Assembly (NCBI RefSeq): GCF_005771535.1
Contig: NZ_VANU01000002.1
Coordinates: 434,001-498,000 of the forward strand
Direction of reading: 5' to 3'
DNA: 64,000 nucleotides
DNA from: Arcobacter arenosus
GTDB lineage: Bacteria; Campylobacterota; Campylobacteria; Campylobacterales; Arcobacteraceae
Each line of letters opens with the position of its first letter. The stretch's first letter is position 1. The notes beneath the pieces were generated by a model that had not been told where the DNA came from, searched no databases, and saw nothing but the letters and a program-made list of their open reading frames with translations. Position numbers and translations under genes: made by a program. This document shows, piece after piece, positions 27,926 through 45,409 of the stretch.

Positions 27926-28237
27926 TTAAGGGATTTGTATATAGATTTGTTGATTTTCAATTTTTGTTTCATATGTTTTTGAACATTCATAATCTTCACC
28001 AATGGCAGAACCATTTTCTAAATTGATATCAGTATTATGCAGGGGGCATGTTACTATATGCTCATGAACTAAACCATCATTTAATTTACCTTGTTTATGT
28101 GGACAAATATTGTTTATAGCAAAAATCTCACCATCTTTTGTTTTAAAAATAGCAAGTTCTAATTTTCCAAATTCTATTACTCTTGCACCCATCTCTGGGA
28201 TATTATCTACTTCAGTTATTTTATACCAATTACTCAT
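27926..28237 (-). CDS. nirD: Nitrite reductase small subunit (Rieske type)
   Basis: Partner of NirB in cytoplasmic NADH-dependent nitrite reduction to ammonia. The 103-residue protein has Rieske-like [2Fe-2S] ligands CPHKQG near residue 45 and CPLHNTDINLENG near residue 64 (CxH and CxxH), as in the iron-sulfur-binding NirD variants; E. coli NirD lacks these ligands. It overlaps nirB by 4 bp (ATGA). A terminator hairpin follows. Confidence 0.9.
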   Translation of the reverse strand: MSNWYKITEVDNIPEMGARVIEFGKLELAIFKTKDGEIFAINNICPHKQGKLNDGLVHEHIVTCPLHNTDINLENGSAIGEDYECSKTYETKIENQQIYIQIP

Positions 28238-30699
28238 GCCTCTACTCCTTTTGCTTCAAAACTATGTGAATCCTCTGGGCTAATTACAATTTTGTCAAAT
28301 TCTTTTGTAAATCCATCTTCGATTGCTTTTTTCCATGGGTCAACTTGTGCTGATTTTTGTGACTCATCAAAACGGCTCGCCCAATATTTTCTTTTTTCTT
28401 CATCTAAGATTTCATCTTTGATATATTGTAAACCAACTCTTTCAATCCAATGGGCAGTTCTTTCTAAATAGTAAGCATCTTCCCTATAAAATTGCATAAA
28501 TGCTTTTGTGTATTCAAATACTTCCTCTTCTGTTTCAACTTTACATAAAAGGTCTGTTACTCGCACTTTTATACCACCATTTCCAGCAATATGTAGTTCC
28601 CATCCTGAATCAACTCCAATTACACCAAAGTCTTTGATTGTTGCTTCTGCACAGTTTCTTGGACATCCTGATACAGCGATTTTATATTTGTGTGGAGTCC
28701 ATGAACCCCAAGTAAGTTTCTCTAACTTAACACCCATACCCATAGAATCTTGTGTACCAAATCTACAATATGTATTTCCAACACATGTTTTAACAGTTCT
28801 AAGACCCTTTGCATAAGCTTGACCTGATACAAATCCACAATCATTTAAGTCTTTCCACATAGGTGCTAATTGCTCCTTTGTTACACCAAACATATCAAGT
28901 CTTTGACCACCAGTAAATTTGATAGTTGGAACTTCATATTTAACAGCAATATCAGCGATATCTTTTAACTCTTTTGGAGTTGTTAATCCACCCCAAATTC
29001 TTGGAACTACAGAGTAGGTACCATCTTTTTGAATATTTGCGAAGTTTCTGTCATTTACAAGTGCAGATCTTTTATCATTCATATACTTATCATCATTGTA
29101 TTTAGCTAATAAGTAGTAGTTAACTGCTGGTCTACATTTTGCACAACCATCTTCTGTCTTCCATTGTGCTTTTTTAAATACATCGTAAACTGTATCAAAC
29201 TCACCATTATCAATGATTTTTTTGATTTCTCCATGACCTTTATCTGTACAAGAACAAATTCCCTCAGGTGCAGAATTATACTCATCACCTAAAGTATTTA
29301 CTAAAATTTGCTCAACTAAACCAACACAAGATCCACATGAAGCCCCAGCTTTAGTACATGATTTTACATCCCCAAGAGATTTTAAATCTTTATCTTTTAT
29401 GGCATTTACAATATCACCTTTACAAATACCATTACATCCACAAACCTCTTCGTCATCACTCATAGCATTGACATCATCTCCACCATGACCAGAATCACCA
29501 AGTGCAGATTTACCAAATAAAATTTTTGTTCTTAAGTCACTTATATCTGTATGCTCTTTTAATAGTTTTAAATACCATGATGCATCAGCTGTATCTCCAT
29601 AAAGTACAATACCAATAATTTTATTATCATAGATAACAAGTTTTTTATAAACTCCAACTTTTTCATCAAGTAAAATTAATTCTTCAGTTGTTTCATCACC
29701 TAAATAATCCCCTGCAGAAAATAAATCAACACCAGAAATTTTAAGTCTAGTTGATAGTGTTGAGCCACTATAACCATGAACTTCTACACCAGCTAATTTT
29801 TTAGCTAAAACCTTTCCTTGTTCATAAAGAGGAGCAACTAATCCATAAGTGTTTCCATTGTGTTCAACACATTCTCCAACAGCATAGATTGAATCATCTG
29901 AAGTTTTTAGAAAATCATCTACTAAGATACCTTTTTTAGTTTCTAATCCAGCATCAATTGCTAGGTCTTTGTTTGGGATAATCCCTGTAGCAAATACTAT
30001 AAGATTTGAATCTACAATTGTTCCATCACTAAAAGTTACTTTTTCAACTTTTTCACTTCCTAAAATCTGTTCAACTGTAGTATTTAATTTAAACTCTATT
30101 CCATAGCTTTCTAAGTTTTTTTGTAAAAGTCTTCCACCAGTAGAGTCTAATTGTTGAGATAAAATTGAACCTGACCTATGCACTAAGACAGTCTTAACTC
30201 CATGCATAGCAATACCATAAGCTGCTTCAAGACCAAGTAATCCTCCCCCAACAACAACAGCAGTTTTTTCTTTGTTTATTGTAGACATGATAGTGTCAAC
30301 ATCAGCTTTGTTTCTAAAGGCAATTACATTTCCTAAATCACTTCCTTGTGTTGTAGGAATAAAAGGTTTTGACCCCGTAGCTATTAAAAGTTTGTCATAT
30401 GAAATCTCTAAGCCAGATTCAGATTTTACTTTTTTATTCTTTTTATCAATAGAAACTACCTTATCCCCTTTATGTAAAGCAATATGGTTTTGTTCATACC
30501 ATGAACGATGATTAATAATAGTATCTTCAAATGTTTTTTCGCCAGATAAGATATATGAAAGCATAATTCTATTGTAGTTTACATATGGCTCTTCACCAAA
30601 AATTGTAATCTCATATTTATCGTTTGTATATTCATATAAATCTTCAATTACACGAAGACCACTCATGCCATTTCCAATGACTACTAATTTCTCTTTCAT
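28234..30699 (-). CDS. nirB: NAD(P)H-nitrite reductase large subunit
   Basis: Assimilatory siroheme nitrite reductase, 821 residues. Domains in order: FAD site VVIGNGMSGLRV at the N-terminus; NAD site AVVVGGGLLGLEAAYG near residue 148; two BFD-like [2Fe-2S] regions (CGCNGICKGD with CTKAGASCGSC, then CSCTDKG with CAKCRPAVNYYL); ferredoxin-like half domain; siroheme/4Fe-4S domain with CVGNTYCRFGTQD and SGCPRNCAEATIKD. All cofactor ligands appear present. AAGGAAAAAA lies upstream of the ATG. A GTATA-N5-CATAC palindrome sits about 70 bp before the start. Confidence 0.95.
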   Translation of the reverse strand: MKEKLVVIGNGMSGLRVIEDLYEYTNDKYEITIFGEEPYVNYNRIMLSYILSGEKTFEDTIINHRSWYEQNHIALHKGDKVVSIDKKNKKVKSESGLEISYDKLLIATGSKPFIPTTQGSDLGNVIAFRNKADVDTIMSTINKEKTAVVVGGGLLGLEAAYGIAMHGVKTVLVHRSGSILSQQLDSTGGRLLQKNLESYGIEFKLNTTVEQILGSEKVEKVTFSDGTIVDSNLIVFATGIIPNKDLAIDAGLETKKGILVDDFLKTSDDSIYAVGECVEHNGNTYGLVAPLYEQGKVLAKKLAGVEVHGYSGSTLSTRLKISGVDLFSAGDYLGDETTEELILLDEKVGVYKKLVIYDNKIIGIVLYGDTADASWYLKLLKEHTDISDLRTKILFGKSALGDSGHGGDDVNAMSDDEEVCGCNGICKGDIVNAIKDKDLKSLGDVKSCTKAGASCGSCVGLVEQILVNTLGDEYNSAPEGICSCTDKGHGEIKKIIDNGEFDTVYDVFKKAQWKTEDGCAKCRPAVNYYLLAKYNDDKYMNDKRSALVNDRNFANIQKDGTYSVVPRIWGGLTTPKELKDIADIAVKYEVPTIKFTGGQRLDMFGVTKEQLAPMWKDLNDCGFVSGQAYAKGLRTVKTCVGNTYCRFGTQDSMGMGVKLEKLTWGSWTPHKYKIAVSGCPRNCAEATIKDFGVIGVDSGWELHIAGNGGIKVRVTDLLCKVETEEEVFEYTKAFMQFYREDAYYLERTAHWIERVGLQYIKDEILDEEKRKYWASRFDESQKSAQVDPWKKAIEDGFTKEFDKIVISPEDSHSFEAKGVEA

Positions 30700-30766: not shown

Positions 30767-30781
30767 GTATATAAAACATAC
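30767..30781. promoter_or_regulatory. GTA-N9-TAC palindrome upstream of nirB
   Basis: GTATATAAAACATAC is the same palindrome type seen at the nrtA and nitrite-channel promoters. On the minus strand it is 68 bp before the nirB ATG. The -10 at the expected 22-bp spacing (CAAAAT, 30744-30739) is poor; TATCAA at 30747-30742 is an alternative with 19-bp spacing. Weaker case than the other two. Confidence 0.35.
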
Positions 30782-30868
30782 TAATAAACTTAAAAATTAA
30801 TTAAAAATAAGTATTTAGCTAAAATAAATCTTATTTTTCTTGCTTTAATGCTTAAAAATACATTAAAA

Positions 30869-32593
30869 TTATGAAAGTAAAAGTATACAAACTAAAACAA
30901 AAAGTATTAGTGTACTACTTTGCCAAAATATTAATGGATTTCTTTGTATTAAAGCAGGCTTTGTTTTCCTTAAAAAATTCTCATTTGGATTATATAAATC
31001 ATAAATAAATTCAGAAATTTGAGAATATCTTTTTGATGGCTCAATCTCACACGCTTTTTTAATAGCTTCATCAACCCATATAGGGATATTTTTTTTATCT
31101 TCATCATAAATTGATTTATATTTTAATTTTCGTTGAAGAGATTTTGTATTTGATTTTGAAACATTAACTCCATATGGAAAAGAGCCCGACAACAATTGAT
31201 AAGTAATTATCCCAAGTGAAAAAATATCTGATTTTGTAGTCCCTTCAAATCCTAAAAAATATTCAGGGGCAGAATACATAGCTGTCCCTTGAATATGAAA
31301 TTGTTCTGTTAATGTAGAAATATCACATAAACCTGCAACTTTAGTTGCTCCAAAATCTATAATTTTAACTAGACCAGTATCATCTATCATTATATTTTCA
31401 GGACGTATATCTTGATGAATCATCTCTAATCTATGAAATGCATATAATCCTTTTGCAATTTGTTCAATTATATCTCTCACTTTTTCTAGTTTTGGGTTTG
31501 GGTTATCAATTATCCATTGAGTTAAAGTTTGTCCTTCAATAAACTCTGTTACATTGTAAACATAGTTTTGTTTTCTTGTTTGTATAAATGATTTAACTAC
31601 GTGGGGATTATTGATTTTTTTGGCAATCCAATCTTCTAATAAAAATCTTTCTAGATAAGCTTTGTTATCTTGTAGTTCAGTTGATGGAATTTTCAAAACA
31701 AGTTTTTTTGAAGTTTTGATATTTTTAACAACATAGGTGTGACTTCTACTACTTGATGTTAAGTTTCTTAAAACTAAAAACCCATCAAACTCTTGTCTTG
31801 CTTCAAGTAAAGAGGGAACTTTTTTTTCTTCTAGTTGTTCAGTAATCTCTTTAATTTGTTTATCTGGAAGATTTGTGATTTTAATTATTTGAATAGTTAA
31901 GTTATCATCACTACCATTTTCAAGTGCTTTTTCAACTAAAACTCTTGCAGCAGTGTCATAATGTCCATCAAAAATATTTAAAGTATCTTTTATGGTTTTA
32001 AAATCTAAAAATTCATAAATACCATCGCTTGCTAAAATAAATATATCATCTTTTTCAACGGCTGTATGTTCATAATCAATAGTAAGTTGGGAATCTAATC
32101 CCATAGCTCTACTTAAATAACTCTCTTGACTTGATACCCATATTCTGTGGTCAGTTGTTAGTAACTCTTCTTTGTTGTTTCTAATTCTATAAATTCGTGA
32201 ATCACCAATATGAAATATATGTGCAGTATTTGATTTAATAACTATTGAACTTAAAGTACAAACATACCCTTTGTCTTTGTCATAGGAATTGATACTTTTT
32301 TTAGATTGGGAAAAAAGCCATGAGTTTGTGGCGCTTAAAACTCTCATGGCTGATTTTTTTACAGACCAAGTCTGTGAGGTACAATAGTAATCTTCTAAAA
32401 AGGAGTTTACGGAAATTTGACTAGCTATATCACTAACATTACTTGAACTAATTCCATCAGCAAGGGCAATTGCAATACCTTTATATTTTAGTTGGTGTTC
32501 ATTTGGTACACAAATACCGTGAAAGTCTTGGTTTACTTCTTTCACACCTTTTGATGAGTATTGTCCATAGTTTATTTGTAATATATTTTTCAT
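30869..32593 (-). CDS. Fused PP2C phosphatase / Ser-Thr protein kinase with C-terminal membrane anchor
   Basis: A 574-residue bifunctional protein. Residues 1-240 are a PP2C phosphatase: Asp23, ADG (45-47), GDSR (130-133), SDG (189-191) and DDN (229-231) supply the metal ligands. Residues 270-530 are a Hanks-type kinase: Lys301, Glu320, catalytic loop HQDIRPEN (393-400) and DFG (413-415). The loop has HQD where active RD kinases have HRD, and the Gly-rich loop is degenerate. The C-terminus ends in a hydrophobic anchor (STLILFVLVCILLLS). Similar fusions lie by nitrate/nitrite assimilation genes in other bacteria; here it is between cynS and nirB. Confidence 0.9.
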   Translation of the reverse strand: MKNILQINYGQYSSKGVKEVNQDFHGICVPNEHQLKYKGIAIALADGISSSNVSDIASQISVNSFLEDYYCTSQTWSVKKSAMRVLSATNSWLFSQSKKSINSYDKDKGYVCTLSSIVIKSNTAHIFHIGDSRIYRIRNNKEELLTTDHRIWVSSQESYLSRAMGLDSQLTIDYEHTAVEKDDIFILASDGIYEFLDFKTIKDTLNIFDGHYDTAARVLVEKALENGSDDNLTIQIIKITNLPDKQIKEITEQLEEKKVPSLLEARQEFDGFLVLRNLTSSSRSHTYVVKNIKTSKKLVLKIPSTELQDNKAYLERFLLEDWIAKKINNPHVVKSFIQTRKQNYVYNVTEFIEGQTLTQWIIDNPNPKLEKVRDIIEQIAKGLYAFHRLEMIHQDIRPENIMIDDTGLVKIIDFGATKVAGLCDISTLTEQFHIQGTAMYSAPEYFLGFEGTTKSDIFSLGIITYQLLSGSFPYGVNVSKSNTKSLQRKLKYKSIYDEDKKNIPIWVDEAIKKACEIEPSKRYSQISEFIYDLYNPNENFLRKTKPALIQRNPLIFWQSSTLILFVLVCILLLS

Positions 32594-32644: not shown

Positions 32645-33091
32645 TTACCAAGATTTATATGGTAAAAATTTCCCATTCATAGTTATAACTACTCTATCGC
32701 CAGCTGGATTTTTTTCTTTATCAATGTCCATTGAAAAATCAATTGCACTCATAATTCCATCACCAAATTTTTCACCTATAAGTTCTTTTATAGTATCCCC
32801 ATAAACTCCAATTACTTCATAAAACCTATAAACAACTGGGTCTGTAGGAATTGATTTTTCCCAAGTTTTATATGGAAATTCAATTAAAGCTTTTTCTACA
32901 TCTTTCCCTAGTTTTAAAACTTTACAAAGTTTTTTTGCAGGCTCTTTTGTTAAACTGTTTTGTCCTAAACAAGCGGAAGTTAAAAATACAGAACCTAATC
33001 CAACTTTTTTAGAAATCTCTTCCCATGAAAGTCCTAACTCTTTTTTTGCAACTATAATTTGTTCGGTCATTTCAATTTTTGTCATTTTCAT
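32645..33091 (-). CDS. cynS: Cyanate hydratase (cyanase)
   Basis: Converts cyanate and bicarbonate to ammonia and carbon dioxide. The 148-residue protein has the N-terminal helix-turn-helix-like part (LGLSWEEISKKVGLG) and the catalytic C-terminal part with Arg89, Glu92 and Ser115 in VVYRFYEVIG and GIMSAIDF, which match Arg96, Glu99 and Ser122 of the E. coli enzyme with a constant offset of 7. It sits within the nitrite/nitrate group, so cyanate is likely used as a nitrogen source or detoxified. Confidence 0.95.
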   Translation of the reverse strand: MKMTKIEMTEQIIVAKKELGLSWEEISKKVGLGSVFLTSACLGQNSLTKEPAKKLCKVLKLGKDVEKALIEFPYKTWEKSIPTDPVVYRFYEVIGVYGDTIKELIGEKFGDGIMSAIDFSMDIDKEKNPAGDRVVITMNGKFLPYKSW

Positions 33092-33180: not shown

Positions 33181-34023
33181 TTATGCAGCTTTTTTATCAT
33201 AAGAAGCAGTCACACCTAAATCTCTTTTTGCCCCTGTTTTAACATGAGTAGCATAAATCATTAGGCCAACAAATACTAAACCACCAACTAAGTTACCTAA
33301 TGCAACTGGAAGTTCATTCCATAATAAGTAATCAGCGATTGTAAAGTCTCCACCCATGATTAAAGAGAATGGGAATAAAAACATATTAACAATTGAGTGC
33401 TCAAATCCCATAAAGAAGAACAACATAACTGGCATCCACATTGCAAGCCATTTACCTGAAACTGAAGTTGAAATCATAGCTCCAACAACACCCATAGATA
33501 CCATCCAGTTACATAACATACCTCTAATGAATACTGTAATCCATCCATCAACACCATGTGCTGAGTATCCTAAAGTTCTAGATTCACCGATAGTAGCAAC
33601 TTTTGCAGCTATAGCTCCACCGTCTGTATTAAAACCCATAGTAAAGATAAATGCCATCATACAAGCAACTGTAAAGGCTCCACCAAAGTTACCTAAAGCA
33701 ACTAATCCCCAGTTTCTTAACATTTGACCAACTGTAACCCCTGGTCTTTTGTCAATTAAAGCTAAAGGTACTAAAGTAAATACACCAGTTAAAAGGTCAA
33801 ATTTCATTAAGTAAAGCATAATGAAACCAACAGGGAATAAACAAGCTCCTAAAATTGGAGAACCTGATTTCATTGCAACTGTAATTGCAAATACCGCTGC
33901 TAAACCTAAAATAGCACCAGCCATGTAAGCTCTAATAAGAGTATCCTTTGTTGACATGAAGACTTTTTCTTCACCCGCATCTACCATTTTGGTAGCAAAC
34001 TCAGATGGGTTAATATACGACAT
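33181..34023 (-). CDS. Formate/nitrite transporter family channel, likely nitrite
   Basis: Inner-membrane pentameric anion channel, 280 residues with six membrane helices. Family signatures are AYMAGAILGLAAVFAI at the first helix, NWGLVALGNFGGAF and LCNWMVSMGVVG, the asparagine-rich re-entrant regions, and GFEHSIVNMF near residue 210, with the conserved central His. FNT members carry formate, nitrite or hydrosulfide. Nitrite is inferred because nirB, nirD and nitrate reductase lie close by, so a NirC-like role is likely. A GTA-N9-TAC box and TATAAT are present upstream. Confidence 0.9.
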   Translation of the reverse strand: MSYINPSEFATKMVDAGEEKVFMSTKDTLIRAYMAGAILGLAAVFAITVAMKSGSPILGACLFPVGFIMLYLMKFDLLTGVFTLVPLALIDKRPGVTVGQMLRNWGLVALGNFGGAFTVACMMAFIFTMGFNTDGGAIAAKVATIGESRTLGYSAHGVDGWITVFIRGMLCNWMVSMGVVGAMISTSVSGKWLAMWMPVMLFFFMGFEHSIVNMFLFPFSLIMGGDFTIADYLLWNELPVALGNLVGGLVFVGLMIYATHVKTGAKRDLGVTASYDKKAA

Positions 34024-34114
34024 CCAAACTCCTTTTTAATATTTATTTTTAAGATGTGGTATTAAATCAAATAAAGTGAGGAAAAAAATAGGATTTTTAA
34101 ATTTTTGTGTATAA

Positions 34115-34158
34115 ATTATATACATATATAGAAAAAATCAATTGTACAGAATAGATAC
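34115..34158 (-). promoter_or_regulatory. Promoter of the nitrite-channel gene with an NtcA-like site layout
   Basis: On the minus strand a GTA-N9-TAC box (34158-34144) is followed after 23 bp by a perfect TATAAT (34120-34115). The start codon is about 90 bp further. The box extends to a 21-bp inverted repeat (ATTGTA at 34141-34146 and TACAAT at 34156-34161). The TATAAT itself lies within a second palindrome GTATAAATTATATAC (34109-34123), which may therefore be chance. An activator bound near -42 is inferred. Confidence 0.5.
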
Positions 34159-34205: not shown

Positions 34206-35726
34206 TTGTTTGTATTTTTTATACTATCTTTGTTTTTGTTAATTGGTAGTACTATAAAAGACTCATATAAAGTCCAAGAAGATTTATTAGTTGAAAGTTT
34301 ACGAAGTAAAGCAGAGGCTATCTTTAATCTTATTGTTGATATGCGACATTGGAATGCCCAATTTAATGGTGTATATGTAAAAACAGAAGAGTTACAGCCA
34401 AATCCATATTTGAATCCAAATTTCATCAAATCAGAAAAGGGTGAGACAATGGTTTGGGTAAATCCTGCCTTTATGACAAGGATGATTTCTGATATTGCAA
34501 GTACAAGGGAAGGTTTTACTCTTAAAATCACTAGTAATAAGCTTATAAATAAACACAATGCTCCAGATGAGTACGAGAAATCTGTCTTAGATAGATTTGA
34601 TGAAAATCCAGAAATACCTTATTATTGGAATATAAAAGGGGATACTTTTAGATTTGTAGGGGCTTTAAAAACTGAGCCTGATTGTTTAAACTGTCACTCT
34701 TTTCAAGGTTATAAAGTAGGTGATGTAAGGGGTGGTATTAGTGTTACCTTTGATGCAAAAAAAGAGTTTTCTCAACTTGAAGAGATAAATAAAGATAAAG
34801 AGCAAACAATAATGTTTCTTATAATAGCTGCCATTGGTTCAATTATTACATTAATACTTTATCAAACTATGCAAAGAAGAGATGAAAGAAAAATTTCAAA
34901 TCTAAACGAATCATTAGAGATAAAAGTAAAAGAGTTAGATGAGTTTAATAAAACACTTCATAAAAAAGTAAAAATAGAGGTTGATAAACAAAGAGAAAAA
35001 GAAAACTTATTAATTCAGCAATCAAAAATGGCAGCAATGGGTGAGATGATTGGAAATATTGCCCACCAGTGGAGACAGCCTATTTCAGCAGTTAGTGCTA
35101 TTATGATGAATATAAAATGGACTGCAATAGAACAAGGTGCTGATAAAAACTTCCTTGATGAAAGAATGAAAGAAGCAAATGAACAGTTAAAGTATATGAG
35201 TCAAACAATAGATGATTTTAGAACATTTTTTAAACCAGATAGAGAAAAAGAGTGCTTTAACTTAAAAGATGAGGTGCAAAAAGCATATAAAATATTGCAA
35301 GCATCTTTAGAAAATCAAAATATAAATTTACAAATTTATTGTAAAAAGGTGATTACAGTTTATGGATACTCAAATGAGTTTTCTCAAGTAGTATTGAACT
35401 TAATTTCAAACGCTAAAGATGTATTAATAGAAAGGGAAATTCAAAATCCAAAAATTAAGATATATTTAGATGAAGATGAAAAAAATATCTACTGTGAAGT
35501 AAAAGATAATGGTGGAGGAATAGATGAAAAAATTATTGATAAAATTTTTGAACCATATTTTACAACTAAAGAGGGACATGGAACAGGTATTGGTTTATAT
35601 ATCTCAAAAGAGATTATTCATAAACATATGAAAGGTTTACTAATCGCACAAAATATAGAAGAGGGTGCAAACTTTAAGATATCAATTCCTAAAACAAAGG
35701 ATATGTGTAATGCAAATATTGAGTAG
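34206..35726 (+). CDS. Heme-motif (Tll0287/DUF3365-like) sensor histidine kinase
   Basis: A kinase with an extracytoplasmic sensor that contains CLNCH (residues 160-164 from the TTG start), a c-type heme-binding motif, within a DUF3365/Tll0287-like domain (RSKAEAIFNLIVDMRHWNA, PEIPYYWNIKGD). Membrane segments lie at the very N-terminus and at about 203-220. H-box His287 in GEMIGNIAHQWRQP and an HATPase (DNGGGIDEKIIDKIFEPYF, GTGIGLYISKE) follow. The TTG at 34206 lacks a ribosome site; an in-frame ATA at 34185, 7 bp after AAGGA, would add seven residues. Divergent from the nitrite channel, it may sense redox, NO or a similar ligand. Confidence 0.88.
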   Translation: MFVFFILSLFLLIGSTIKDSYKVQEDLLVESLRSKAEAIFNLIVDMRHWNAQFNGVYVKTEELQPNPYLNPNFIKSEKGETMVWVNPAFMTRMISDIASTREGFTLKITSNKLINKHNAPDEYEKSVLDRFDENPEIPYYWNIKGDTFRFVGALKTEPDCLNCHSFQGYKVGDVRGGISVTFDAKKEFSQLEEINKDKEQTIMFLIIAAIGSIITLILYQTMQRRDERKISNLNESLEIKVKELDEFNKTLHKKVKIEVDKQREKENLLIQQSKMAAMGEMIGNIAHQWRQPISAVSAIMMNIKWTAIEQGADKNFLDERMKEANEQLKYMSQTIDDFRTFFKPDREKECFNLKDEVQKAYKILQASLENQNINLQIYCKKVITVYGYSNEFSQVVLNLISNAKDVLIEREIQNPKIKIYLDEDEKNIYCEVKDNGGGIDEKIIDKIFEPYFTTKEGHGTGIGLYISKEIIHKHMKGLLIAQNIEEGANFKISIPKTKDMCNANIE

Positions 35727-36390
35727 ATTAAAAGAAAAAACAATACTTTTAGTGGAAGATGAAGATATTATTAGAAATAATATTGCATCGATGTTGAAAC
35801 ATTTTTTTAAAGAAGTTTATACGGCAAGTGATGGTTATGAAGGTGTCGATAAATATGAAGATTATCTTCCTAATATAGTTATGACAGATTTAAAAATGCC
35901 TATTATGGGTGGATTTGAATTAATAGAAGAGTTAAAAAAACGTTCAAGTAAAGCTTACACAATAATAGTATCAGCCCATACAGATACAGAACTTTTAATA
36001 GAAGCGATTAATAATGGAGTTGATAGATATATAATAAAACCAGTAACAGAAGATGAACTATTTGAAGCTTTTGAAGCATATTTTAAAAAGCTTGATGAAA
36101 CAACGCCTAAAGTAGTTGATTTAAATGAAACCACTAAAATAGACATTGATAAACACTTAGCAATAATTAATGGTGTAGAGGTAAAACTAAATAAAAAAGA
36201 GAATCAACTTTTAACACTTCTTTGTGTTGATATGAATAAAGCAGTTTCATATGAAGAGATAGAGTATCAAATCTGGGGAAGTGATTCTATGAGTTTATCT
36301 GCTATAAGAAGTGTGGTTAGAGACCTGCGAAAAAAAATAGGAAGTGAGTTTGTTGTAAATGTTTCAGGAATTGGGTATAGGTTGAGGTGA
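35710..36390 (+). CDS. OmpR-type response regulator, partner of the heme-motif kinase
   Basis: Receiver domain (TILLVEDEDIIR; phospho-acceptor Asp60 in NIVMTDLKMP; VSAHTDT; YIIKPVTEDE) followed by a winged-helix output domain (LNKKENQLLTLL, LSAIRSVVRDLRKKIG, GIGYRLR). The open frame extends up to 35665, but the ATG at 35710 is chosen because it begins just before the conserved fold and overlaps the kinase gene by only 17 bp. It shares its architecture with the regulator at 27104-27778, so the two are paralogues. Its targets may include the divergent nitrite channel. Confidence 0.9.
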   Translation: MQILSRLKEKTILLVEDEDIIRNNIASMLKHFFKEVYTASDGYEGVDKYEDYLPNIVMTDLKMPIMGGFELIEELKKRSSKAYTIIVSAHTDTELLIEAINNGVDRYIIKPVTEDELFEAFEAYFKKLDETTPKVVDLNETTKIDIDKHLAIINGVEVKLNKKENQLLTLLCVDMNKAVSYEEIEYQIWGSDSMSLSAIRSVVRDLRKKIGSEFVVNVSGIGYRLR

Positions 36391-40002: not shown

Positions 40003-41991
40003 TTAAACCTTTTCTACTTTTACTGCACTATGGTTATAATCAGGTTCAAATGATTCTTTATCACAAAGGTCATTTGTAAGATAGTTTATCTCTCTATTAC
40101 TTACTGGAATAAATATACATTTTTCTCTTATATCTTTTGTAATTAAAGCCTTTGAAATAATTTCACCTCTTGTGGAACTAATTTTAATCTCTTCTCCATC
40201 AACTATTCCTAATTCCATTGCATCAATTGGATTTATTTCACAAAAGTTTAGTTCCTTATATTTTAATAAAGTTTTTGGAAGATTGGTTTTTGTACCACTA
40301 TGCCATTGGTCTCTAGTTCGTCCTGTTAAAAGAGTAAATGGGTACTTTAATGATGTTTTTTCACTAAGTAGTTTATTTTCAACAAAAAATAGGTTTGCTT
40401 TTTTATCAGGTGTTAAGAACTCTTTTTTAGCAATGATATCTTCTCCCCAAATAAATGGTTTGGCATTTATATCATCATAATTAGCTTCATGAATATTCAT
40501 ATGATCACTTAATTTTGTCATCTCTTGATACTCTTCAAAAATCTCTTTAGGGGTGTTATAATTAAATGTATGACCAAATCCTAAACCTTGTGCTAGTAAT
40601 TGGAAAATCTCCCAATCAGGTTTACAATCAATTGAACTCCTTGTAAGTTTTTCTTGTTTTGTTATAGTTCTATCAAGATTTGTTTGAGTTCCCTCTTTTT
40701 CTCCCCATGGAGCAGCAGGTAGTCTTATGTGAGCAAATTTTGCAGTCTCTGAGTTTTCATAAGCATTAATCTCAACTACCATTGGAATTTTTTTAATTAA
40801 TTGTTCCATTTTATTTCTATTTGGAAGATGGTATATTGGATCAGTATGACAAATTATCAAAATATCTAGATTAGCTTCAAGCATTTGTGTTGCAGTTAAT
40901 CCAGGTTTATTATCTATTGTTTTTGTTCCCCAAAATTTTGAAACTTTTTCAATGGAATCTTTATCAAAACCAAAATGAACAGCAAGCATAGTTGATAATC
41001 CTCCAACTTCCCTTCCTCCCATTGCATTTGGCTGACCTGTTAGAGAAAAAGGCCCATTCCCCTCTTTAAATATTTTTCCTGTTAAAAGATGGGTATTGAT
41101 TAGTGCTAGATTTTTATCAACACCTTGAACTGATTGATTTAATCCCATCGTCCAAGCAGTGATTATATTTTCACTATTTTTATAAATCTCCCAAAACTCA
41201 TCAAATTCATCTTGGCTTAGACCTGTTCTTTTTAGCATCTTTGTAACAGGGACTCTTTTAAATTTGTTTTTTAATAATTCAAAATTGTTAACGTGTTTTT
41301 CAACAAACTCTTTATTTACTAGCTCTTCATCAATAATTCTTTTAGATAGTAAATTAAAAAAATCAATATCACTTCCAGGTTTTATTGCTAAGTGTAAATC
41401 CGCTAATTTAGCCGTATCAGTTTCCCTTGGATCAATAACAACTATTTGAAGCCCTTTTTTCTTTGCTTTTTTTATTCTATTATGAAATACAACATGAGCT
41501 TCTGCTGTGTTTGCTCCTGCTAATATTAAAAGGTTTGCTTTTTCAACATCTTTCATTCTAACTGGAACAAAATCTGCTCCAAAGGCTTTTTTGTGTGCAA
41601 CAACAGCACTTGCCATACATGTTCTACTATTTGTATCAATATTATTAGTTCCAATAAACCCTTTTACTAGTTTATTAGCAATATAATAATCCTCCGTTAA
41701 TAGTTGCCCGGATAGATAAAACCCTATTTTATTTTTGGGCGTTTGTTTCATCTTATTAACAATTGATTCAATTGCTTTTTCCCAACTGGTTATTTTGTAA
41801 TCATTATTTATATCATTTCTTATATGGGGTCTTAGAAGTCTTGATGGTGTTTCTATACTAATTAATTCACTAACACCCTTTGAACAAAGTTTTCCTTCAT
41901 TTACAGGATATGTAATATCTCCAACAAGTTTATTTGTATCAAATTCTAATCCACATCCAACACCACAATATCCACAAACTGATTTAATCAT
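40003..41991 (-). CDS. nasA: Assimilatory nitrate reductase catalytic subunit (NasA/NarB type)
   Basis: Molybdenum bis-MGD enzyme reducing nitrate to nitrite in the cytoplasm. N-terminal [4Fe-4S] ligands CGYCGVGC with a fourth Cys in GKLCSKG; then TNNIDTNSRTCMASAVV (Cys ligand region for Mo), LILAGANTAEAHVV, VIDPRETDTAKLAD, MGLNQSVQGVDKN, GQPNAMGGREVGG and, near the C-terminus, TGRTRDQWHSGTKT. No Tat signal, so it is not the periplasmic NapA. A GTG at 42000 is possible, but ATG at 41991 follows AAGG at 8 bp. No NasB-like electron donor is encoded beside it. Divergent from nrtA. Confidence 0.9.
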   Translation of the reverse strand: MIKSVCGYCGVGCGLEFDTNKLVGDITYPVNEGKLCSKGVSELISIETPSRLLRPHIRNDINNDYKITSWEKAIESIVNKMKQTPKNKIGFYLSGQLLTEDYYIANKLVKGFIGTNNIDTNSRTCMASAVVAHKKAFGADFVPVRMKDVEKANLLILAGANTAEAHVVFHNRIKKAKKKGLQIVVIDPRETDTAKLADLHLAIKPGSDIDFFNLLSKRIIDEELVNKEFVEKHVNNFELLKNKFKRVPVTKMLKRTGLSQDEFDEFWEIYKNSENIITAWTMGLNQSVQGVDKNLALINTHLLTGKIFKEGNGPFSLTGQPNAMGGREVGGLSTMLAVHFGFDKDSIEKVSKFWGTKTIDNKPGLTATQMLEANLDILIICHTDPIYHLPNRNKMEQLIKKIPMVVEINAYENSETAKFAHIRLPAAPWGEKEGTQTNLDRTITKQEKLTRSSIDCKPDWEIFQLLAQGLGFGHTFNYNTPKEIFEEYQEMTKLSDHMNIHEANYDDINAKPFIWGEDIIAKKEFLTPDKKANLFFVENKLLSEKTSLKYPFTLLTGRTRDQWHSGTKTNLPKTLLKYKELNFCEINPIDAMELGIVDGEEIKISSTRGEIISKALITKDIREKCIFIPVSNREINYLTNDLCDKESFEPDYNHSAVKVEKV

Positions 41992-42077
41992 TATCTGCAC
42001 CTTATAAATATATTATACATTCAATTTTCTATGGAGTTTATTATATAGTTTATTTTATGAAAAATTAAGATTTGATT

Positions 42078-42120
42078 GTATAAAAAATATACTTTTTTCT
42101 GCTGAATAATTGTTTATACT
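42078..42120 (+). promoter_or_regulatory. nrtA promoter with GTA-N9-TAC box
   Basis: The perfect palindrome GTATAAAAAATATAC (42078-42092) is followed after 22 bp by TATACT (42115-42120), the best -10 before nrtA. The palindrome centre falls about 42 bp before the expected transcription start, the classical class II activator position. The same spacer also holds the start of the divergent nasA. A nitrogen-responsive Crp-family or other dimeric activator is inferred. Confidence 0.5.
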
Positions 42121-42172
42121 GTGTTAGAATTTTCACATCAAAACTAGATAAAGGTAAAATTAAGGAGAGTTC

Positions 42173-43552
42173 ATGTTAAAACAGGTATTAAAAATTGGTT
42201 TAGGTGTTTCAGTTGTAGCTTCTACATTATTAGCAGCACCGGAGAAAACAAAATTAAAAATTGGTTTTATTGCACTTACTGACTGTGCACCATTAGTTAT
42301 TGCAAAAGAGAAAGGTTTTTTCAAAGCAGAAGGGCTTGATGTTCATGTTGCAAAAGAGGGTGGTGGATGGCCAGGTATTCAGCAAAAAGTTATCAACGGA
42401 GAGTATGATTTTTCTCACGCTTTAGCTGGTATGCCAATTGCTGCAACTTTAGGAATCAATGGAAATGCTAACTTACAAGCACTTTTATCACTTGATTTTA
42501 ACGGTAATGCAATTACTTATGGTAATGATATTATTGATAAAATGAAAGAGTATGGACTTGAAGAGACTAAAAGACCTGTTTCAGCTGAATCACTTAAAAA
42601 ATATATCGATGCAAAAAGAGCAAAAGAAGGTGATAATTATCAACCACTTAACTTTGGTATGGTTCACCCAGTTTCTACACACAATTATGAATTGAGATAT
42701 TGGATGGCTGGTTCTGGAATTAAACCAGATCAAGATTGTACAATTAAACCATTCCCACCACCAACAATGCCATCAAATTTAATTGCAGGTAATATTGAAG
42801 GTTACTGTGTAGGTGAGCCATGGAACTCAAGAATTGTACTTAAAGGTAAAGGTTCGGCACTTGTAACTAACTATGATATTTGGAACAATAACCCAGAAAA
42901 AGTTTTACAAGCAAGAGCTGATTTTGTTGAAAAATATCCAGAAACTACAAAAGCGGTTATGAGAGCAGTTATTAAAGCTCAAATGTGGTTAGATGAATCA
43001 TGGGAAAACAGAGAAGAAGCTATTGGTTACTTAGCTCAGAAAAATTATGTAAAAGCTCCAAAAAATGTACTTAGAAAATCTATGTCAGGAACTTTCCTTT
43101 ATAACAAAGGTGTAGATTCAGCAAACCCAATGTTTAACGTTTTTGCTAACTATTATGCATCTTATCCTTTTTATTCACACGGTATGTGGTTTATTACTCA
43201 AATGTATAGATGGGGACAACTTGATAAACCAGTTGATATGAAAGCAACTATTGAAAAAGTTTATAGACCTGATTTATTTGAAGAAGTTGCAAAAGAGGTT
43301 GGATATACATTACCACCAAGTGCTTGGAAAAAAGATGGTGTTGATGAATACAATAAGTTTATTGATGGAAAAGTTTGGGATCCAAATAAAGCTGTAGATT
43401 ATATCTATGATTTTGAAGTTCAAAATTCTTTAGTATCAAAAGAAGATTTAGCAGCTGCAAATAAGTGGTCTGTTGAAACTAAACAACCTGCATATGTTTG
43501 TCCTTATGGACCAGCAGGATGTGCTGATGAAAAATATGTAACTAAAAAATAG
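42173..43552 (+). CDS. nrtA: Nitrate ABC transporter substrate-binding protein
   Basis: Periplasmic binding protein of the NrtA/CmpA family, 459 residues. A Sec signal peptide ([16 protein letters not shown]) is present without a lipobox, so it is soluble. Family blocks: [68 protein letters not shown] and the exit EPWNSRIV near residue 220. These include ligand-contact positions of NrtA. CmpA (bicarbonate) and NrtA are close; nitrate is inferred from neighbours nasA and nirB. GGAGAG precedes the ATG. Hairpins follow in the spacer before nrtB. Confidence 0.92.
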
Positions 43553-43677: not shown

Positions 43678-44487
43678 ATGAATAAAGAATTGTATAAAAA
43701 GATATTTCTACCACTTGTAGTTTTAGTAATAATAATTCAAGTTTGGTCAACCCTTGCAAATGTAGTGGAAAATTTTCCAACACCAAGTGATACATATGTA
43801 TATGCATTTGGTGGCGAAACATCAGATGGTGAAGAACCAGAAGGTGTATTTTCTGATCCATTTTATATAGAGAATCAAGATGACAAAGGTATTTTTTGGC
43901 AAATCTTAGCATCTTTAGAAAGAGTATTTAGTGGTTTTATTTTAGCAATTATTGTAGGTGTTCCAGTTGGTCTTGCTGTTGGAATGAGTAAATCATTTCA
44001 ATATGCATTAGATCCATTTATTCAAATATTTAAACCAGTTTCACCATTAGCTTGGCTTCCATTATTGTTATTTGTATTTCAAGATATTGATGCAACAGCA
44101 ATTTCAACAATATTTATTACATCAATATGGCCAATTATTATAAACACTGCACTTGGAGTTAAAAGTGTTAATCAAGACTATTTAAATGTAGCAAAGGTTT
44201 TACAATTTACACCTTTAGAAAAGGTTACAAAAATTATATTACCAGTAGCAGTTCCTTATATATTTACAGGTATGAGATTATCTTTAGGTATTGCTTGGTT
44301 AGTTATTGTTGCTGCTGAGATGTTAACAGGTGGAATTGGAATAGGTTTTTGGATTTGGGATGAATACAATAACTTAGCATATCATAATATTATTCTAGGG
44401 ATTATCACAGTTGGTATAATCGGATTTATCCTTGATGTTATTATGGGGTTTATTGCAGATTTCTTTGATTATAGAAAAAAAATGTAA
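43678..44487 (+). CDS. nrtB: Nitrate ABC transporter permease
   Basis: Inner-membrane permease, 269 residues. The N-terminal helix (IFLPLVVLVIIIQVWSTLA) is followed by an extracytoplasmic stretch and five further segments. The binding-protein-dependent transport motif that contacts the ATPase is visible as EKVTKIILPVAVPYIFTGMRLSLGIAWL near residue 180 (EAA-like loop). SLERVFSGFILAIIVGVPVGLAVG is typical of NrtB/SsuC permeases. Gene order binding protein, permease, ATPase supports the call. AAGAAGGTAAATTT precedes the ATG. Confidence 0.92.
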   Translation: MNKELYKKIFLPLVVLVIIIQVWSTLANVVENFPTPSDTYVYAFGGETSDGEEPEGVFSDPFYIENQDDKGIFWQILASLERVFSGFILAIIVGVPVGLAVGMSKSFQYALDPFIQIFKPVSPLAWLPLLLFVFQDIDATAISTIFITSIWPIIINTALGVKSVNQDYLNVAKVLQFTPLEKVTKIILPVAVPYIFTGMRLSLGIAWLVIVAAEMLTGGIGIGFWIWDEYNNLAYHNIILGIITVGIIGFILDVIMGFIADFFDYRKKM

Positions 44488-44611: not shown

Positions 44612-45409
44612 ATGAGTAAAAACAATTTTTTAGAATTAGAAAAAATAAGAAAATCATTCCCTTTACCAGGGGGAAAAGAGTATGTTGCCGTTGTTGATGT
44701 TGATTTAAATATCAAAAAAAATGAAATCATTTCAATCATTGGTCATAGTGGATGTGGTAAATCAACACTTCTTAATATGATTGCAGGTTTAGATATGCAA
44801 ACTGAGGGAAATATAATCTTAAATAATAAAGAGATTAAAGGACCAGGACCAGAAAGAGCAGTTGTATTTCAAAACCACTCATTACTTCCTTGGTTAACTG
44901 TTTATCAAAATATTGAGATGGCAGTTAAAAAAGTGATGCCCGGATTATCCAAAACTCAATTAAAAGAAAGAGTAGAAAAATTTGTTTCTATGGTAAATCT
45001 TGACCATGCAAAAGATAAATATCCTGGCGAAATATCAGGTGGTATGAAACAAAGAGTTGGTATTGCTAGAGCACTATCAATTAAACCTCAAGTTTTATTA
45101 ATGGATGAACCATTTGGTGCACTTGATTCTTTAACAAGGGCAAATTTACAAGAACATTTAATGAGAATTCAACAAAAAGTTCAAAATACTGTAATTATTA
45201 TTACCCATGATATTGATGAAGCAGTTTTATTAAGTGATAGAGTAATTATGATGACAAATGGCCCAGAAGCTACTATTGGTGAGGTTTTAGAAGTAAACTT
45301 AGATAGACCAAGAGATAGAGTAGCTTTACAATCTGATCCTGAATATATTAGATGTAGAGAAGCAATATTAGATTTTTTATACAAAAAATTTGCAAAGGAT
45401 GATGAATAA
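44612..45409 (+). CDS. nrtD: Nitrate ABC transporter ATP-binding protein (NrtD type)
   Basis: Cytoplasmic ATPase, 265 residues, with Walker A GHSGCGKST near residue 47, Q-loop FQNHSLLPWLTVYQN, ABC signature SGGMKQRVGIARAL, Walker B VLLMDEPFGALD and the H-loop ITHDIDEA. It has only the ATPase domain, so it is NrtD-like; cyanobacterial NrtC carries an extra NrtA-like domain that is missing here. It likely acts as a homodimer with NrtB. AAGGAATATATT precedes the ATG. Confidence 0.92.
   Translation: MSKNNFLELEKIRKSFPLPGGKEYVAVVDVDLNIKKNEIISIIGHSGCGKSTLLNMIAGLDMQTEGNIILNNKEIKGPGPERAVVFQNHSLLPWLTVYQNIEMAVKKVMPGLSKTQLKERVEKFVSMVNLDHAKDKYPGEISGGMKQRVGIARALSIKPQVLLMDEPFGALDSLTRANLQEHLMRIQQKVQNTVIIITHDIDEAVLLSDRVIMMTNGPEATIGEVLEVNLDRPRDRVALQSDPEYIRCREAILDFLYKKFAKDDE

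Follow-up and report, generated by a model that had tools for sequence, protein, structure and literature searches.

Which protein reads the palindrome that separates the nitrate-uptake genes of Arcobacter arenosus from a divergent reductase gene, and what does it control? In the window (the whole stretch of 64,000 nucleotides analyzed here), the 172-bp gap between a narB-like gene and nrtA holds the box GTATAAAAAATATAC at 42078-42092, followed 22 bp further on by TATACT at 42115-42120. The first-pass annotation had seen here a perfect GTA-N9-TAC palindrome, 22 bp and TATACT, all of which are present, and had read them as the site of an NtcA-like activator, perhaps of the Crp family, at about -42 of nrtA. 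Nitrogen sensing in Campylobacterota is little described, as far as the literature was searched; excerpts of the literature matches listed named no nitrogen regulator for Arcobacter, for Campylobacter or for the phylum that holds them. For C. jejuni reference strains, the excerpt of a 2026 paper gives PII, NtrBC, Amt and GlnE as absent and the regulatory mechanism as unidentified (PMC12795558).

A box shared by two divergent promoters

The features of the nrtA region are as follows.

42078..42092, symmetrical (no strand): nitrogen box GTATAAAAAATATAC, core of TGTATA-W5-TATACA, common to the divergent nrtA and narB promoters
42173..43552, + strand: nrtA, nitrate ABC transporter substrate-binding protein (NMT1-like), named from operon context, its own NCBIfam matches being below cut-off
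43678..44487, + strand: nrtB, nitrate ABC permease (TIGR01183 above cut-off)
44612..45409, + strand: nrtC/D, nitrate ABC ATPase (TIGR01184 above cut-off)
40003..42000, - strand: narB/nasA-like molybdopterin oxidoreductase, divergent from nrtA (best NCBIfam matches Fdh-alpha, NasC and NasA, below cut-offs)
42125..42130, + strand: conserved nrtA -10 TAGAAT with TGT upstream (extended -10), 32 bp after the box
42115..42120, + strand: TATACT of the first-pass annotation, 22 bp after the box, a spacing that is not conserved
42040..42045, - strand: TATAAT, -10 of the narB-like gene; on this strand, too, the distance from the box is 32 bp

The GTA arms noted at first are real and under-describe the palindrome, the arms of which are perfect over 5 bp (GTATA-N5-TATAC) and reach 6 bp in most relatives. 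Among the 30 nrtA orthologs fetched, and scored without a shuffled control, the best box match fits at least 16 of 19 positions in 29 (60-112 bp before the start codon) and 14 of 19 in the outlier, L005; the centres of the matches lie 74-98 bp before the start codon. By alignment, the spacing is N9, odd and with a central base pair, in the window box and in 29/30 nrtA orthologs. The pattern used for the family-wide searches itself fixes N9, so the pattern counts given below are no test of this spacing.

The box marks nitrogen genes across the family

Short forms of the box are uninformative as counts. GTA-N9-TAC is about as common in the window as chance predicts (11 matches vs. 9.5 +/- 2.8 expected), and the seven copies of GTATA-W5-TATAC in the 3.13-Mb genome are unremarkable by themselves, since the reversed control gives five. 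However, all seven of these sites lie before nitrogen genes (the places of the control sites are not given), and the full box, TGTATA-W5-TATACA, has 327 copies in 104 family genomes vs. 22 for its reversed control (present in 79 vs. 20 genomes, respectively). The objection that AT-rich sequence yields such matches at random thus holds for GTA-N9-TAC alone in the window and fails for the full box in the family. Because of the seven sites and the excess over control, we conclude from these sequence comparisons that the palindrome is the operator of a global nitrogen regulon of Arcobacteraceae, in agreement with the earlier suggestion of a nitrogen regulator's operator in a Campylobacterota lineage. 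The exact box was found in 58 of 397 genomes of the class, 28 of the 43 sampled from the family and 30 of the 354 others, with 0-3 copies each; as written, it is therefore mainly an Arcobacteraceae trait.

The seven targets in A. arenosus are nrtA/narB, nirC-cynS with a divergent histidine kinase gene, urtA, glnA, amtB1, amtB2 and a divergent operon ending in glnD, which encodes a 286-aa membrane protein, an AAA+ protein with a Fis-type helix-turn-helix (HTH; hereafter the AAA+/Fis protein) and GlnD. The nirC-cynS site and a further, imperfect box, before nirB, lie in the window.

34109..34123, symmetrical (no strand): second perfect box GTATAAATTATATAC, between nirC-cynS and the heme-type histidine kinase gene
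33181..34023, - strand: nirC-like formate/nitrite transporter (PF01226; below NCBIfam cut-offs)
32645..33091, - strand: cynS, cyanase (TIGR00673 above cut-off)
34206..35726, + strand: histidine kinase with a Tll0287-like sensor domain (CLNCH motif); the box is 32 bp before its TACAAT
35665..36390, + strand: OmpR-type response regulator adjoining that kinase (domain match)
30767..30781, symmetrical (no strand): one-mismatch box GTATATAAAACATAC before nirB, with an AATAAT extended -10 32 bp after it
28234..30699, - strand: nirB-type assimilatory nitrite reductase (NIR_SIR, Pyr_redox_2, Fer2_BFD)

Two side observations concern this cluster. Between nirB and cynS, 30869-32593 encodes a protein in which a PP2C phosphatase is joined to a Ser/Thr protein kinase. 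Kinases related to the 34206-35726 product are encoded divergently from the AAA+/Fis gene in four loci (L050, L053, L064 and L107).

We also took the complete site sets of eight genomes, 55 sites made up of the seven above (15-bp core) and 48 (17-bp box) in G047, G061, G079, G083, G085, G091 and G102. On a strict count, 33 of the 55 lie before genes for nitrogen acquisition or nitrogen signalling (7/7 in A. arenosus, 7/15 in G047, 4/6 in G083, 1/6 in G102, 2/7 in G085, 4/5 in G061, 3/4 in G091 and 5/5 in G079). This becomes 35 if two GAF-AAA+ genes (L066 and L113) are included, the products of which look NifA-like, a name read from their domains. The nitrogen targets in these genomes are amtB or Amt-like genes, glnA, nrtA/narB, urtA, nirC, EutB, UreD, the regulator operon and a NirB-like gene recognized from its start. 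The remaining 22 sites have no obvious nitrogen gene behind them; they precede porin-like, Cache-domain, TRAP binding protein, panB and other genes, one precedes a TOBE/HTH (ModE-like) protein and two are inside genes.

Box and -10 element are held at regular spacings

To describe promoter geometry, we took the family loci fetched and scored every perfect box core within 130 bp of a BLAST-recognized target start for -10-like hexamers behind it (A at position 2, T at position 6 and at least four of six matches to TATAAT). Earlier spacing sets had been hand-picked (e.g. 19 amtB1 and 8 narB promoters); the full count comprises 27 and 12, respectively. A hexamer 31-33 bp after the box was found in every promoter of six targets: glnA (10/10, vs. 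a background of 1.6 per average three-position window), amtB1 (27/27 vs. 5.1), amtB2 (11/11 vs. 3.1), nrtA (12/12 vs. 2.4), narB (12/12 vs. 3.2) and the histidine kinase gene (2/2 vs. 0.4). The operon for the membrane protein, regulator and GlnD has its hexamer at 21-23 bp instead (7/7 vs. 1.1), and urtA at 51-53 bp (2/2, and 3/3 in the hand-picked set). In promoters of operons that begin with the AAA+/Fis gene, 31-33 bp is seen in 5/7, yet 34 bp is commoner (6). At nirC, hexamers occur in 0/2 at 21-23, 31-33 and 41-43 bp and in 1/2 at 51-53 bp, and by eye there is a weak TTTAAT near 42 bp. The rows for any one promoter are related sequences, so it is the agreement between different genes that provides independent support.

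With starts placed from the -10 positions, the box centres would lie near -42, -52 and -72, i.e. in steps of about 10 bp. Hexamers at about 22, 32 and 52 bp would keep the protein on one and the same helix face, which suggests an activator of sigma-70 polymerase, and the activator reading of the first-pass annotation is probably right. Its placing of the box at about -42 of nrtA, in contrast, does not agree with the conserved TAGAAT, which puts the centre near -52, and TATACT is not the conserved nrtA promoter element: a -10-like hexamer stands exactly 22 bp after the box in 3 of 12 nrtA promoters, and at 21-23 bp in 4 of 12. The spacing of about 22 bp does recur, before the candidate regulator's own operon. 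As a separate observation, three urtA promoters (L039, L070 and L127) carry an AAACAACACT direct repeat between box and -10.

An NtrC-like gene tracks the box

In A. arenosus, the gene for the 252-aa AAA+/Fis protein lies outside the window (contig C3:180861-181616), between the membrane-protein gene and glnD, in an operon divergent from amtB-glnK-amtB-glnK. It is found in 81 of the 104 family genomes at E 1e-10. Gene and box occur together in 77 genomes and are both missing from 21; four have the gene only (G066, G068, G069 and G097) and two the box only (G056 and G065, where the box is perfect). Within one genus (g2) the division has zero exceptions (17 with both, 14 with neither). The Fisher p of 5.7e-16 takes no account of relatedness and overstates independence, since the losses are few, with a minimum of three changes of the gene-presence label on a glnA tree of 32 rows. 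Nor can co-loss alone single out the AAA+/Fis protein, because genomes without its gene may have lost neighbouring nitrogen genes as well.

The glnA promoter offers a comparison at a single gene. A perfect box lies 74-76 bp before glnA in 9/9 genomes with the AAA+/Fis gene, vs. no site under four mismatches within 250 bp in the 18/18 readable loci of genomes lacking it (one unreadable locus lacking the gene is left out).

More distant homologs point the same way. In g8, g11 and g12, where protein identity is about 40%, the gene is near amtB2 and glnK in seven of nine fetched loci (L163-L166, L171, L174 and L175), and a perfect box precedes amtB2 in four of these seven (L164, L166, L171 and L175). 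Gene, amtB-glnK and box also occur together in two genomes of other families: in L162 (family f8) the box lies between regulator and amtB, with a TACAAT beginning 22 bp after it, and in L178 (family f4) it lies in the gap between membrane-protein and regulator genes. Most homologs fetched from outside the family (about 32-44% identity) are at a slyD-fabD locus, and none of the fetched loci of this type has the box. In five loci of other Campylobacterota families (L148, L150, L152, L154 and L155), the homolog sits between slyD-like and fabD-like genes with a tol-pal-like cluster adjoining, the names being a reading of the ORFs. The recognition helix of the slyD-fabD homologs reads NRNTLRKK; the fetched amtB-linked homologs have I, V, T or A at the position of the second N, with two N exceptions (L170 and L177). 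The related-locus set, retrieved with a pattern requiring I or V, is unfit for this comparison.

Together these data make it likely that the box is read by the 252-aa NtrC-like AAA+/Fis protein, a protein without a receiver domain or GAFTGA loop. The 286-aa probable membrane protein (L046:5973-6833), which is without a convincing family match, has its gene at the head of the regulator-glnD operon in A. arenosus and several relatives, and might help to relay the signal.

A trimmed NtrC fold

An AlphaFold model of an ortholog 91% identical to the A. arenosus protein (L179; 34 sequences) has a mean pLDDT of 91.8 and a pTM of 0.78. Its best fold match among those listed is the AAA+ domain of NtrC1 (1ny6; Z 17.0, rmsd 2.3, 177 aligned residues), and VpsR is also among the fold matches. 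Model residues 2-180 align with residues 137-372 of the 1ny6 chain, so about 57 residues of the NtrC AAA+ domain are missing. Profile searches likewise returned NtrC1 and Fis chains. The protein matches the ntrC family TIGR01818 (E 1.3e-10) far below its cut-off (score 40.7 vs. 558.6), and the Fis HTH family PF02954 (E 2e-4) 0.5 bit under the Pfam cut-off (21.5 vs. 22). The HTH motif N-R-x-T-L-R-K-K is invariant. No receiver domain was found in the 252 residues, which begin at the AAA+ domain. GAFTGA occurs in 0 of 46 aligned rows (12 + 34, some possibly from the same organisms), Walker A is kept in 45 of the 46, and the acidic pair of Walker B is not kept.

The DNA-binding domain of sigma-54 was found in 33 of the 104 family genomes, A. 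arenosus included. Of the 77 genomes that have both gene and box, 45 gave no match to this domain, 38 of these 45 being at least 90% complete, and we reject a sigma-54 promoter for the 45. In genomes that do encode sigma-54, A. arenosus among them, such a mechanism is only unlikely, because of kinship with the others and the missing GAFTGA.

A second element at nitrate-pathway boxes

A second sequence, TTAATGWAWWWTTAAG, accompanies the box in the nitrate and nitrite cluster of the window, with one mismatch at each of the first two places listed.

42054..42069, + strand: TTTATGAAAAATTAAG, which differs from TTAATGWAWWWTTAAG at one position and precedes the nrtA box by 8 bp
30789..30804, - strand: TTAATTAATTTTTAAG, one mismatch, preceding the nirB box by 7 bp and so arranged as at nrtA
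30851..30866: further copy of TTAATGWAWWWTTAAG type near nirB

By eye, most nrtA orthologs have this element ahead of their box. The 104 family genomes contain 81 copies vs. 39 of the control. Genomes with nrtA have 1.59 copies each vs. 0.44 for the control, and those without nrtA 0.42 vs. 0.35; the element is thus specific to the nitrate pathway, being enriched only where nrtA is present. It is probably the site of a nitrate-pathway regulator; an OmpR-type protein would fit its two half-sites, which are 11 bp apart.

Proposed mechanism and alternative readings

Taking these observations together, we consider it probable that the box is a nitrogen operator at which the 252-aa AAA+/Fis protein binds and activates sigma-70 promoters when nitrogen is short. 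Its Fis-type HTH would let the protein bind as a dimer, which would then activate sigma-70 RNA polymerase under nitrogen shortage. At 42078, a single symmetrical box would allow nrtABC and the divergent nitrate reductase gene to be induced jointly. The nitrogen signal would most likely arrive via GlnK/GlnD, encoded beside the gene, or via a nucleotide at the Walker A site; this is the least certain step, and for gating by GlnK/GlnD it is the gene neighbourhood alone that suggests it.

Several other explanations of the box were weighed. A chance AT-rich palindrome would fit the count of GTA-N9-TAC in the window and the near-equal control of the 15-bp core in the genome, and we reject it, with virtually no probability left, on the seven of seven nitrogen sites, the excess of the full box over its control and the conservation in 29/30 nrtA orthologs. 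An activator of the Crp/Fnr family and NtcA type has in its favour the GTA...TAC arms, the nitrogen targets and the 7/7 regulator-operon promoters with a spacing of about 22 bp, all of which resemble NtcA promoters as the excerpt of PMC3898017 presents them, and Crp-type genes do exist in the A. arenosus genome (five matches). The resemblance to NtcA sites nevertheless breaks down, since the spacing is the odd N9 vs. the even N8 of NtcA in that excerpt, and the conserved nrtA -10 is TAGAAT at 32 bp, not TATACT. Crp-type HTH genes (Crp subfamilies pooled) are moreover present in 103 of 104 genomes regardless of the box, whereas the AAA+/Fis gene tracks it. We reject this reading, which we consider very improbable, on the spacing, on the position in the promoter and on the failure of Crp-type genes to follow the box.

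The box might instead be the site of a repressor that keeps the promoters off under nitrogen excess, and a symmetrical site close to a promoter often belongs to a repressor. The box centres, however, lie upstream of clear -10s in steps of about 10 bp, the usual activator pattern, and we regard repression as unlikely. Alternatively, the box might be bound by a different DNA-binding protein that comes and goes with the nitrogen genes, be it of LysR type, of MerR type like GlnR/TnrA or the OmpR-type regulator at 35665, the AAA+/Fis protein then acting otherwise. The LysR box motif is T-N11-A, which the box contains along with a TGT...ACA frame, and the kinase/regulator pair at 34206-36390 adjoins a box. 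Yet no LysR, MerR or OmpR type is encoded in the amtB-glnK/glnD neighbourhood of A. arenosus, where the AAA+/Fis gene is, and it is this gene that stands beside amtB-glnK with the box in the two genomes of other families as well. In addition, the geometry of the box equals that of the NtrC box given in the excerpt of PMC8743547, and a different reader is in our opinion quite unlikely.

Within the preferred reading, activation by the AAA+/Fis protein, we tentatively put forward a more specific version, of which we are doubtful: Arcobacteraceae may use a one-component, minimal NtrC that dispenses with receiver, sigma-54 loop and phosphorylation and is gated directly by GlnK or by its nucleotide/2-oxoglutarate state on sigma-70 promoters. 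If true, this would be a nitrogen master regulator short-circuiting NtrB-NtrC. Apart from this version, box and gene already offer a regulon that can be tested throughout the family, with targets in the use of ammonium, nitrate, nitrite, urea, cyanate and ethanolamine and perhaps in nitrogen fixation, and the protein looks like a member of the NtrC type that has abandoned sigma-54. The position of the box and a single HTH residue (mostly I/V here, N in the slyD-fabD paralogs read) lend themselves to a natural specificity experiment.

Comparison with known nitrogen regulators

Enterobacterial NtrC (NR-I) shares with the candidate the AAA+ fold, the Fis-type HTH, nitrogen-acquisition targets and GlnK/GlnD encoded nearby. 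The GlnR/TnrA regulators of Bacillota are MerR-type proteins with the box TGTNA-N7-TNACA; like the Arcobacteraceae box, theirs is a 17-bp TGT...ACA nitrogen operator, and the two differ at box position 5. NtrC-type architecture in sigma-70 use is known from VpsR and TyrR. Proteins of the VspR, VpsR and TyrR type have other signals and regulons and longer N-terminal parts. In the excerpt of PMC10274813, VspR is a further case of this architecture in sigma-70 use.

In E. coli, the NtrC box is TGCACCAnnnTGGTGCA, of 17 bp, in the excerpt of PMC8743547; it agrees with TGTATAwwwwwTATACA in its 17 bp, its odd symmetry and the outer TGnA-N9-TnCA, and the inner letters differ. Unlike enterobacterial NtrC, the candidate has no receiver or GAFTGA, sigma-54 is not found in 45/77 of the genomes with gene and box, the box core is TGTATA, and Arcobacteraceae boxes have sigma-70-type -10 elements at fixed spacing. 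Closer in this respect are the NtrC proteins of Rhodobacter capsulatus and Caulobacter, which are NtrC-type nitrogen regulators without GAFTGA, reported active on sigma-70 promoters and in need of their receiver (excerpt of PMC10274813). They keep, according to the same excerpt, a phosphorylated receiver and the NtrB kinase, whereas the candidate has no receiver. NtcA of cyanobacteria resembles the present case in having a nitrogen-control box upstream of a -10, and differs in protein family, in its even palindrome (GTA-N8-TAC) and in a canonical position near -41.5 (excerpt of PMC3898017). The candidate would thus work like NtcA or a GAFTGA-less NtrC, yet the protein appears to be neither NtcA, because of spacing and position, nor a classical NtrC, because it has no receiver, no GAFTGA and no need of sigma-54.
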